A stretch of 64,000 nucleotides of DNA from Desulfohalovibrio reitneri (GTDB lineage Bacteria > Desulfobacterota > Desulfovibrionia > Desulfovibrionales > Desulfovibrionaceae), in NCBI RefSeq assembly GCF_000711295.1, contig NZ_JOMJ01000003.1:1375501-1439500 (forward strand), in the 5' to 3' direction. The notes under the pieces were generated by a model. That model saw only the letters and a program-made list of their open reading frames with translations, was not told where the DNA came from and did not search any database. Position numbers and translations under genes: made by a program. Each line of letters starts with the position of its first letter. Within the stretch, counting starts at the first letter, position 1. Of this stretch, positions 58,270 through 64,000 are shown one piece after another.

Positions 58270-58558
58270 GTCCGGGGGGATTGTCCGGGCGACACGGAAT
58301 CGTCACGGTGCGGGGGTAGGTATGACGTGGTGGCCGGAGACTTCGCCCGGCCGAGGCAGCCAAAGGTAACGCCGGAATTGAACCCGCACCCCATCTTCTC
58401 CCCGCCGCGCCCGTCCAGGCGCGCTCTCCGGGGCGACAATCGTCTGAAACAGTTCCCGAGCCTTGACTGGCGGTATAATTTACCGGTTCATGCCCGTGAC
58501 CCGGGCTTGCCAAAATCGTGGCCGCCGGATACTCGGTAAGGGAAGATCTCCGAACCGG
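58270..58558 (+). other. Leader region before the PIN-PhoH gene
   Basis: No gene is supported here. It holds a perfect TATAAT at 58474-58479 about 80 bases before the PhoH start, but no convincing -35 at normal spacing (TTGACT lies only five bases before it). A possible ribosome-binding site AAGGGAAGA is at 58538-58546. Confidence 0.4.
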
Positions 58559-59812
58559 ATGGAGAGAATGCAAGCCAATACCCCCTACGTGATCGAGGGC
58601 GGTTCCGCCGCCAAGGCCCAATCCCCCGCCAAGAAGAAGTTCGTCGTCGACACCAACGTCCTGCTGGAGGACCCCGGGGCGCTGCTGCAACTGCGAAACG
58701 GGGTGGAGAACGACGTCTTCATCCCCTACCACGTGCTCCTGGAGCTGAATAAGCTCAAGAAGGACCCCCGCCTGGGCCACATCGTGACCAAGGTGGTGAA
58801 GATCCTGGCGGAGAACCCGGACGCGTACACCGTGCTCAAGCCGGGCCGCATCGCCGAGAGCTTCCAGAGCCACGTGGACAACTTCATCCTGGAGGAAATC
58901 GCCGAGTCCGGCCTGGACCAGCCCATCCTGGTGACCAACGACCGCATTCTGCAGCTGCAGGCCGACGCCCAGGGCATTTCCTCGGAGAACTACAAGGACT
59001 CCGTGCCCTTCAAGTCGGACGCGGAGTACTTCACGGGATTTCTGGGGCCGGAGGACCTGCCCATCGCCAACAGCTTCCGCTGGGACGAGGGCAGGCCGGT
59101 GTTCAACGGGCCGGAGGGGGAGAAGGTCATCTCCTACCAGCACAAGGTCTGGAACATCACGCCGCGCAACGTGTACCAGAACCTGGCCCTGGAGCTGATG
59201 ACCAACCCGGGCATAGACCTCGTCTCCGTGCAGTCCGAGGCGGGCTACGGCAAGTCCTTCCTGGCCCTGGCCGCCGCCCTGCACCTCTCCCTGGAGAAGA
59301 AGAGCCACGGCAAGATCTACGTGGTCAAACCCATGATAGAGATTGGCCAGAAGCTGGGCTACCTGCCCGGACGGGTGGAGGAGAAGATGGAGCCGTACAC
59401 CAAGTACGTCACCGATCTGGTGATGAAGCTCCACCAGACCCGCCCGGCCAACCGGCTTTTCCACTCGGCCGACACCTACCCCCCGCAGTTCGACCCCAAG
59501 AAGTTCGAGTTGCTGCCCATGGCCTACATCCGGGGCATGACCATCGAGCACTCCGTGGTCATCATCGACGAGATGCAGAACATGTCCCGCTCCGAGTGCC
59601 GTGCCCTGCTCTCCCGCATGGGCGAAGGGGTGAAGTGCTTCTGCCTGGGCGACACCCGGCAGGTGGACAACCCCTACCTGAACCAGGAGAACAACGGCCT
59701 GAACTGGGTGGTGAAGAAGTTCAAGGGCTCGGACAACTACGCCCACCTGGTGCTCAAGGGCGAAAAGTCCCGGGGGCCCATCACCGACCTGGTCATCAAA
59801 AACGGCCTGTAG
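58559..59812 (+). CDS. PIN-PhoH fusion protein (PhoH2-like ATPase/RNase)
   Basis: A 417-residue protein with an N-terminal PIN RNase domain (VVDTNVLLEDPGA, LLELNKLKKD, LVTNDRILQLQA, acidic site intact) and a C-terminal PhoH P-loop ATPase (VQSEAGYGKSFLALAAALHL; VVIIDEMQNMSRSEC; GDTRQVDNPYL). PhoH2 proteins are RNA helicase/RNases, in some species linked to toxin-antitoxin roles; no antitoxin-like gene is adjacent. Two starts nine bases apart (58559, 58568) are possible. The farther one is used because of the AAGGGA site upstream. A terminator follows. Confidence 0.92.
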   Translation: MERMQANTPYVIEGGSAAKAQSPAKKKFVVDTNVLLEDPGALLQLRNGVENDVFIPYHVLLELNKLKKDPRLGHIVTKVVKILAENPDAYTVLKPGRIAESFQSHVDNFILEEIAESGLDQPILVTNDRILQLQADAQGISSENYKDSVPFKSDAEYFTGFLGPEDLPIANSFRWDEGRPVFNGPEGEKVISYQHKVWNITPRNVYQNLALELMTNPGIDLVSVQSEAGYGKSFLALAAALHLSLEKKSHGKIYVVKPMIEIGQKLGYLPGRVEEKMEPYTKYVTDLVMKLHQTRPANRLFHSADTYPPQFDPKKFELLPMAYIRGMTIEHSVVIIDEMQNMSRSECRALLSRMGEGVKCFCLGDTRQVDNPYLNQENNGLNWVVKKFKGSDNYAHLVLKGEKSRGPITDLVIKNGL

Positions 59813-61999: not shown

Positions 62000-62644
62000 A
62001 TGTCCAACAAGACGAAGATGGAATTCGCGGTCCCCCGTTCCGCCGTGGGGGACGTGCTGCGCAACGTGGCCGACGGGCTCGAGTCGGGCAACTTGACTCT
62101 CGGTGAGCATCCAGTGGAGTTCGCCTCCATCAACAAGCTCAAGGTCAGTCTCAAGGAATCCGGCGATTCCTATTTCGTTTCGGTGTCCATGAAATACGAG
62201 CCCGAGGCCTTGGTGTGTTCCTGCGGCGTGGAAGGCTGCGTCTGCGGCCTGACGCCGGAAGAGGCCAAGGCCCGCCGCGAGGCCGAGGGCGACGCGGACG
62301 AAGATGACGAGAGCGAGCCGGCGGCGGAGCGTCGGGCGCTGGCCAAGGGCGACGGCAAGCCCAAGTACACCAGCCTGAAGAAGGGCATGAAGAAGGACTG
62401 GAAGGCCATCCTCGAGGCGCTGGAGGGCGGGGTTTTTCCCGACCCGGGCATCGCCTCCAAGTTCATGGACGACTTCGACCTGATGCTTACCTACCCCGAC
62501 GAGGGCGAGGAGTACTACGACGTGAACCGCCGCGCCATGGACGTGTTTCGCCGCGCCATGGAGTCAGGCGGGGTGGAGGAAACCAGGCAGGCTGCGGCCC
62601 GGCTTGAGGAGTTGAAGAAACAGTGCCACGACAAGTACAAGTGA
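62000..62644 (+). CDS. XXXCH/amphi-Trp domain protein (GAK-system type)
   Basis: A 214-residue protein. The first 65 residues (KTKMEFAVPRSAVGDVL, VADGLESGNLTL, SINKLKVSLKES) resemble an amphi-Trp domain. A cysteine cluster follows at 73-82 (CSCGVEGCVC), then an acidic segment and a helical C-terminal domain ending KKQCHDKYK, which matches the XXXCH domain defined in TIGRFAMs for GAK-system proteins as I recall it. Function unknown. AGGGAGG precedes the ATG. The PHP-like gene follows after 72 bases. Confidence 0.8.
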   Translation: MSNKTKMEFAVPRSAVGDVLRNVADGLESGNLTLGEHPVEFASINKLKVSLKESGDSYFVSVSMKYEPEALVCSCGVEGCVCGLTPEEAKARREAEGDADEDDESEPAAERRALAKGDGKPKYTSLKKGMKKDWKAILEALEGGVFPDPGIASKFMDDFDLMLTYPDEGEEYYDVNRRAMDVFRRAMESGGVEETRQAAARLEELKKQCHDKYK

Positions 62645-62716
62645 AGGCGGACGCGCGGCGGGGAAGTTCGCGTCCGGACCCGGCCGCAACCCGGCCGTAA
62701 CAATGGAGTGGTAGCC

Positions 62717-63901
62717 ATGAGCCCGATGGAAGCAGTCAAGTTGAGACCGCAGGGGGAGCGGTGCGTCACGGTTGATCTGGACGCCATACCGCCCGAGGTC
62801 ACGGAGGCCGACGAGGAGATATTCTTTCGCATCATCTCCACGGACCTCACCCAGGAGCAGCTGGACCGGGTGGCCGTGCCCAGCCAGACGCATCCCAAGC
62901 AGGAGAACGTCCTGGCCGTCCACTGGCACCCCGAGTTCGTGCCCATGGACACCATCCGGCGGCGGGTGGAGGCCATTTATCCCAACAAGCGGCACGAGTT
63001 GATCATTCCCACCCAGCACAACGAATTGCTGTGGTGGGATGACTACGCCGGGGTTGAGGTGGACTGCTACTCCTCCGGTTTCAACCGCAAGGTGCAGCTT
63101 CTGCTGCACTTCCGGCGGGACCGGGTGGAGGGGCCCAACCAGGCCAGCATGCTCAAGGCCATGCTGAACCACACCTTCAAGTACCGCTCCTCGCAGCTGT
63201 TCGACTTCATGCACGCCGTCACCTCCCCGGACAAGGAGGTCGTGCGCCAGAAGGCCGCCCGCCAGACCAACACCGAGGCGGACGTGGTGGCCTTCACCGG
63301 GCTGTACGTGGGCAAGATCCAGCGCATGCTGGAGGACAACTGGAGCCGGGTGCCCAAGGGGTCCATCAAGAACAAGCTGCTGCGCAATTTCTTCGACGAG
63401 TTGCGGGCGGAGTACGACGAAACCCTGATCAACCACGCCCAGGTCTACCTCAAGGCGATCAAGAAGCTGGTCAAGGCGGAGTTCTCCCTGCAGTACTTCT
63501 ACCGGGCCACGGAGATCATCGAGGAGGCCCGCAGCCTGGGCGCGGGTATCGTCATCCCCCACCCGGAGCAGTTCTGGCCCATCCTGCTGGCGGACTACGA
63601 CGTGGATGGCATCGAGGTCTGGAACCCGCAGTCCATGGAGTACACCGAGTTCCTCATCCGGGCGGTGAACCGCCAGAACGAATACTGCGGCCGGGCCGAG
63701 CGGCCCCTGCTCATCTTCATGGGCGACGACTGCCACATGAGCGAAAAGGTCAAGGACCCGGAATTTCAGGACAAGGAGAAGGTCGCCCGGGAGATAGGAC
63801 TGCAGCCCGCCTGGGACGACCTCATCGTGCGCAAGAGCCTCATCCTGTGCGGCGTGTCCCGCCAGCAGGTCATGGACGAATACGCCGAGCGCCTCGGCTG
63901 A
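62717..63901 (+). CDS. PHP-like hydrolase-type protein in the GAK-like cluster
   Basis: A 394-residue soluble protein with the spaced motifs of a PHP-type phosphoesterase in altered form: VHWHPEFVPMDTI (HxH, 69-71), IPTQHNELLWWDDY, GVEVDCYSS, IVIPHPEQFWPI, GIEVWNPQS and FMGDDCHMSEK. The motif set resembles PHP enzymes, but the surrounding sequence differs from standard families, so the activity is uncertain. ATG 62717 has GGAG at eight bases; a GTG at 62708 is an alternative. Thirteen bases separate it from the next gene. Confidence 0.82.
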   Translation: MSPMEAVKLRPQGERCVTVDLDAIPPEVTEADEEIFFRIISTDLTQEQLDRVAVPSQTHPKQENVLAVHWHPEFVPMDTIRRRVEAIYPNKRHELIIPTQHNELLWWDDYAGVEVDCYSSGFNRKVQLLLHFRRDRVEGPNQASMLKAMLNHTFKYRSSQLFDFMHAVTSPDKEVVRQKAARQTNTEADVVAFTGLYVGKIQRMLEDNWSRVPKGSIKNKLLRNFFDELRAEYDETLINHAQVYLKAIKKLVKAEFSLQYFYRATEIIEEARSLGAGIVIPHPEQFWPILLADYDVDGIEVWNPQSMEYTEFLIRAVNRQNEYCGRAERPLLIFMGDDCHMSEKVKDPEFQDKEKVAREIGLQPAWDDLIVRKSLILCGVSRQQVMDEYAERLG

Positions 63902-63914
63902 GCGAGAGGACGAC

Positions 63915-64000
63915 GTGAGCGACGACAACGAATTCAAGTACGAGTCCGTGCAGGACGTGGAGACCATCACCCGCTACCTGGACGCCCTGGCCGACGGGTT
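63915..64000 (+). CDS. Amphi-Trp domain protein, 5' part only (cut by window edge)
   Basis: A GTG start with GAGAGG upstream, 13 bases after the PHP-like gene. The visible residues MSDDNEFKYESVQDVETITR and YLDALADGF match the start of the amphi-Trp domain (a charged strand, then a helix with LADGL/F). The rest lies outside the window. With the two genes before it, this looks like the opening of a GAK-type gene cluster. Confidence 0.6.
   Translation, partial: MSDDNEFKYESVQDVETITRYLDALADG

Follow-up and report, generated by a model that had tools for sequence, protein, structure and literature searches.

The GAK system is a named bacterial gene set defined by five protein models: amphi-Trp (TIGR04354), HprK_rel_B (TIGR04355), grasp_GAK (TIGR04356), CofD_rel_GAK (TIGR04357) and XXXCH (TIGR04358). 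No reported function was found in the literature searched: queries with the GAK names and model accessions returned nothing relevant and no experiment on any GAK gene, and D. vulgaris and D. alaskensis fitness studies mentioned no GAK component in their main texts under the terms used. The 'ATP-grasp' of a Desulfovibrio nitrate-resistance cluster, considered as a possible GAK member, is actually a PEP/pyruvate-binding enzyme. A related system is the Pho regulon (PhoB, PstSCAB, PhoU), whose PhoB box in D. vulgaris has been tested by EMSA and has an 11-bp period (PMC3333781, PMC6456213). To the GAK set, the present analysis adds two constant components, a likely fold for XXXCH and a first regulatory context, low phosphate, which makes GAK function testable in culturable sulfate reducers.

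The window, i.e. the whole 64-kb stretch of DNA analyzed here (C3:1375501–1439500 of the genome), ends in three tandem genes that almost certainly open a GAK operon, as judged from model matches and gene order. The relevant features, within and beyond the window, are the following.

62000–62644, + strand: gene for the XXXCH protein (214 aa; C-terminal end KKQCHDKYK), with an amphi-Trp-like front (residues ~6–56), an acidic linker and a C-terminal four-helix XXXCH domain (~118–214); TIGR04358, 69.1 bits (cut-off 40); sole XXXCH copy in the genome
62717–63901, + strand: gene for the PHP-like protein (394 aa), a predicted metal-dependent hydrolase and constant member of the GAK set, for which no family model exists
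63915–64000, + strand: amphi-Trp gene, truncated where the window ends; full gene (93 aa) at L002:2916–3197; TIGR04354, 64.8 bits (cut-off 31)
L002:3201–4835, outside the window: PhoU/APH-like kinase (544 aa), with PhoU and APH Pfam matches
L002:4989–5867, outside the window: GAK ATP-grasp; TIGR04356, 456 bits (cut-off 300)
L002:5864–6940, outside the window: HprK-related kinase B; TIGR04355, 534 bits (cut-off 200)
C3:2011804–2012907: CofD-like GAK gene; TIGR04357, 534 bits (cut-off 340)
58463–59812, + strand: PIN-PhoH protein gene (PF02562, 1.7e-40; PF13638), upstream of the cluster; an associated neighbor, not a core part
58289–58306, + strand: tentative candidate Pho box GCGACACGGAATCGTCAC, ahead of PhoH; 12.7 bits

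A preliminary description of the window had proposed a GAK locus, and all five models, TIGR04354 to TIGR04358, are indeed passed in this genome. Its gene ends and intergenic gaps (72 bases from XXXCH to PHP-like, 13 bases from PHP-like to amphi-Trp) proved exact, and TIGR04358 bears out its reading of an XXXCH-ended protein terminating in KKQCHDKYK. Of its amphi-Trp calls, that of the truncated gene holds when the full gene is scored, whereas the front of the XXXCH protein reaches only 26 bits with TIGR04354, below the cut-off of 31. It had also anticipated ATP-grasp, HprK-related and CofD-like genes past position 64000. The amphi-Trp gene, the PhoU-domain kinase, the ATP-grasp and the HprK-related kinase B follow in this order over ~3 kb past the window, but the CofD-like gene lies ~570 kb from the cluster, at a separate locus, in which respect this genome differs from the system as defined. 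Since both the ATP-grasp and the HprK-related gene lie within 3 kb, GAK membership stands.

Among the best 80 of 220 relatives of the PHP-like protein in GTDB, a selection in which distant homologs without GAK may be under-counted, the usual gene order was (XXXCH)–PHP–amphi-Trp–PhoU/kinase–ATP-grasp–HprK_B–CofD, with the PhoU kinase present at 78 and the ATP-grasp at ~68 of the 80 loci. The same order was seen in loci fetched by the ATP-grasp, often with extra amphi-Trp or XXXCH genes behind. Co-occurrence was assessed with a single set of 297 genomes from the phylum, used for every search: the PHP-like protein and the PhoU kinase were both present in 21 genomes and each alone in two, while the PHP-like protein and the GAK ATP-grasp shared 18 (PHP alone in five, ATP-grasp alone in two). 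That the tandem is accidental, with PHP as an unrelated neighbor, has nothing in its favor and can practically be dismissed, given a gene order kept in ~90 loci from several phyla and co-occurrence p-values of ~1e-22 to 1e-28 (Fisher values that ignore kinship). Both the conserved order and the co-occurrence uphold the earlier proposal of the PHP-like protein as a GAK component; missing from the component list given then was the PhoU-domain kinase, which is just as constant.

Among the exceptions, in two genomes (G179 and G275) the locus sits at a contig end, and four of the five genomes with PHP and no ATP-grasp belong to one family (f77), in which PHP is diverged. In G202 and G282 of this family, PHP adjoins the PhoU kinase without amphi-Trp, ATP-grasp, HprK or CofD, and in two members of the window's own family (G197 and G257) the operon is split into XXXCH–PHP–amphi-Trp–PhoU kinase and ATP-grasp–HprK_B–CofD. 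Such isolated pairs and split operons point to two sub-modules, with PHP and the kinase as a separable core. By these distributions, the PHP-like protein and the PhoU/APH kinase are constant GAK members, yet no NCBIfam model names either as such.

The label 'PHP-like', taken over from the preliminary description, is backed by motif order and one weak fold match but not by a family assignment: Pfam and NCBIfam returned no match for this protein and 16 relatives, a PF02811 search of the genome matched other proteins only, and hhalign against a PHP-GT4 family was not significant, though the motif register agrees. Conserved motifs comprise HWHPE, PTQHN, GxExD, HP(E)QFWPILL, DGxEVWNP and MGDDxH, and the candidate metal ligands (HxH, H101, E114, H131, H282 and DxH) show ≥97% conservation across 97 sequences. 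The best Foldseek match of the AF2 model was a PHP phosphoesterase (3e0f; probability 0.98, E 4.9e-3) at a low TM score of 0.31–0.40. A PHP-type enzyme is thus probable.

A link to phosphate emerged upstream of the operons. When GTNAY direct repeats in the 400 bp upstream, on the same strand as the operon, were compared at spacings of 7 to 22, the 11-bp spacing occurred in 24 of 92 operons and each other spacing in one to six; the stricter GTNAC pattern gave 14 operons at 11 bp vs. 0–5 elsewhere. In these relatives start codons are approximate; domain matches served to position the upstream windows, and the set includes several MAG contigs. The 11-bp period matches that of the EMSA-tested D. 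vulgaris site, and this published consensus and the spacing comparison constitute the independent checks on the box. An initial scan with E. coli boxes had yielded a weak signal (11 of 94 above the level reached by 5% of controls), and the GTMAY pattern was chosen after viewing its best sites, rendering partly circular both the GTMAY counts (21 matches in 18 loci, where downstream coding sequence predicts 0.18 and own-genome frequency ~0.07) and the motif derived from them. In leave-one-out scoring, this motif reached ≥12 bits at 33 of 93 operons on the operon strand vs. four on the reverse strand, and it scored ≥10.8 bits in six of ten pstS upstream regions in GAK loci. An exact 11-bp repeat was lacking in 68 of the 92 operons, and 17 of the 24 repeat-bearing operons had no pst gene nearby. 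On the PHP tree, many of whose forks are weakly supported, at least 10 changes in the box and at least 12 in pst linkage are required, so neither reflects a single inherited event.

Neighboring genes tell a similar story. In an unbiased clustering of adjacent ORFs, both PIN-PhoH and Pst genes ranked high among families that recur; the rest of the high-ranking ones, identified by eye, were large multi-copy families such as regulators and chemoreceptors. A PIN-PhoH gene lies near ~20 other GAK loci. Pst genes occur within 10 kb at 14 loci, several of them co-directional and close, e.g. at L105, where PstSCAB, a 220-aa ORF, XXXCH and PHP follow in succession. Among fully flanked loci, six of 44 have Pst transporter genes, with ~0.2–0.3 expected, an estimate based on the 47 PstB genes of 43 genomes. 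In two Desulfobacteraceae, a gene that looks ArsC-like by eye lies between pst–phoU and the GAK operon (L075:5364–5807 and L087:8199–8627).

The PhoU part of the GAK kinase aligns with the structure 4q25 (1.7e-20), and the APH-type HGD, N and D(L)HR residues of this protein are invariant or nearly so. Together, the boxes at 24 of 92 operons, the recurrent Pst/PhoU neighbors and the PhoU domain make the operon look like part of the Pho regulon, and in many species it is very probably under Pho control. The parallels to that regulon are thus the 11-bp-period boxes in relatives, the pst, phoU and arsC neighbors in several lineages, and the PhoU domain within the kinase. The window's own copy departs from this pattern: its upstream region contains no convincing Pho box (best score 6.4 bits), and its downstream neighbors are nif rather than pst genes. 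In the same genome, the phoB promoter region carries a box of 13.4 bits, and the 12.7-bit site ahead of PhoH is the top score in the window, using the motif from GAK and pstS upstream regions. For lack of a box at the window's own operon, a phosphate role in this genome is predicted by homology to relatives, whose regulation is itself deduced from sequence. Downstream of the genome's own HprK_B, from L002:7549 (C3:1444048), lie nifE and a radical SAM/FeMo-co gene; a link to nitrogen fixation was considered, but with no nif family among the recurrent neighbors listed for other loci this arrangement was taken as local.

Our favored reading, to which we assign a probability of roughly 55%, is that in sulfate reducers, and in some bacteria besides them, the GAK operon serves the phosphate-starvation (Pho) response as one of its modules. 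The boxes suggest phosphate control, not what the GAK enzymes do, and the following scheme is a conjecture. PhoB would induce the operon when phosphate is scarce, and the PhoU domain of the kinase would report phosphate status. The kinase and the PHP-like hydrolase could work against each other, one attaching phosphate to a common target and the other taking it off, an antagonism we advance tentatively. The second sub-module, consisting of a RimK/LysX-like ATP-grasp, an HprK-like kinase B and a YvcK-like nucleotide-binding protein, may contribute ligation and phosphorylation of that same target. Being small and non-catalytic, the amphi-Trp and XXXCH proteins would be the likeliest targets or adaptors, although that amphi-Trp proteins in particular are substrates is a doubtful point.

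The enzymes of the second sub-module also bear on a different explanation. The nearest matches of the ATP-grasp are amino-acid/glutamate ligases (MptN at 134 bits, LysX and RimK), and by sequence it is of the RimK/LysX/MptN type. GAK might be a biosynthetic pathway, not a regulatory module, in which two kinases, the ATP-grasp ligase, the CofD/YvcK-fold protein and the PHP hydrolase produce a compound required under phosphate scarcity, either a small molecule or a phosphorus-free replacement, for instance for the envelope. Phosphate-limited D. alaskensis replaces >90% of its phospholipids (PMC5193443), as such a pathway would accommodate, and a gene fusing PHP to a GT4 glycosyltransferase (~805 aa; PHP part recognized by motif, GT4 part by Pfam) recurs near eight GAK loci (L048, L093, L097, L099, L110, L131, L136 and, more distantly, L121); the fusion might encode an Agt-like enzyme that makes phosphorus-free lipids. 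We nevertheless regard biosynthesis as rather unlikely: the amphi-Trp and XXXCH proteins have no recognizable catalytic residues, the PhoU domain is a regulatory part, and the CofD-like protein matches YvcK structures instead of CofD, aligning with UPF0052 structures (2ppv, 1.8e-33), which places it nearer to YvcK than to CofD. This alignment recalls the YvcK (UPF0052), HprK and Crh proteins of Firmicutes, as does the HprK_B protein, which keeps Walker A and the ND(R) motif. The likeness is one of sequence; amphi-Trp, considered as an HPr-like substrate of HprK, retrieved no HPr relative in a PDB search.

The XXXCH domain raises a further alternative. When this domain alone was scanned in 46 relatives, Cytochrom_C_2 matched in 24 (best 6.7e-7) and Cytochrom_B562 in 19, and a PDB profile search placed cytochromes c' on top (8e-5; weaker, at 7.8e-4, with a larger alignment). 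Its AF2 model comprises four helices, for which Foldseek listed cytochrome c'-like proteins first, with non-significant E-values. A divergent cytochrome c'/b562-type four-helix bundle is therefore its likely fold. Of 62 XXXCH sequences, all retain the haem-ligand-like His210 and nearly all Cys209, with Met (55) or Leu (7) at residue 130 in helix 1; this conservation suggests haem binding. Hence GAK might perform redox- or gas-responsive protein modification, with the XXXCH protein binding haem b as the sensor and phosphate as one input of several. We consider this improbable. Like cytochromes c'/b562, the domain has a four-helix bundle and a C-terminal CH motif, but it lacks the first Cys of CXXCH, shows no evident signal peptide and is fused to an amphi-Trp-like front. 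Moreover, it is chiefly along the C-terminal helices that the sequences match, haem binding is itself a prediction, and at about one-third of loci no XXXCH gene was found next to PHP. Combining the favored Pho reading with such a sensor, GAK could constitute an unrecognized branch of the bacterial response to phosphate starvation, a PhoB-induced two-module machine in which the PhoU-domain kinase and PHP-like hydrolase set amphi-Trp phosphorylation, with a cytochrome c'-like haem sensor in the cytoplasm as the gate; in this complete form the proposal is unlikely.

Several relatives carry unusual PHP genes. At L140 (G222) and L141 (G242), a protein of ~305 aa (FGGWLT..FL(I/V)DCG) directly precedes a diverged PHP, replacing the GAK genes. 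In-frame stops (TGA/TAG) interrupt PHP at L038 (G042:C113) and L047 (G122:C131), and at L038 also the PhoU kinase, identifying these copies as decaying or mis-sequenced. In three Nitratidesulfovibrio-like loci (L107, L120 and L134), the PHP match falls into two segments, as if the protein contained an insertion.
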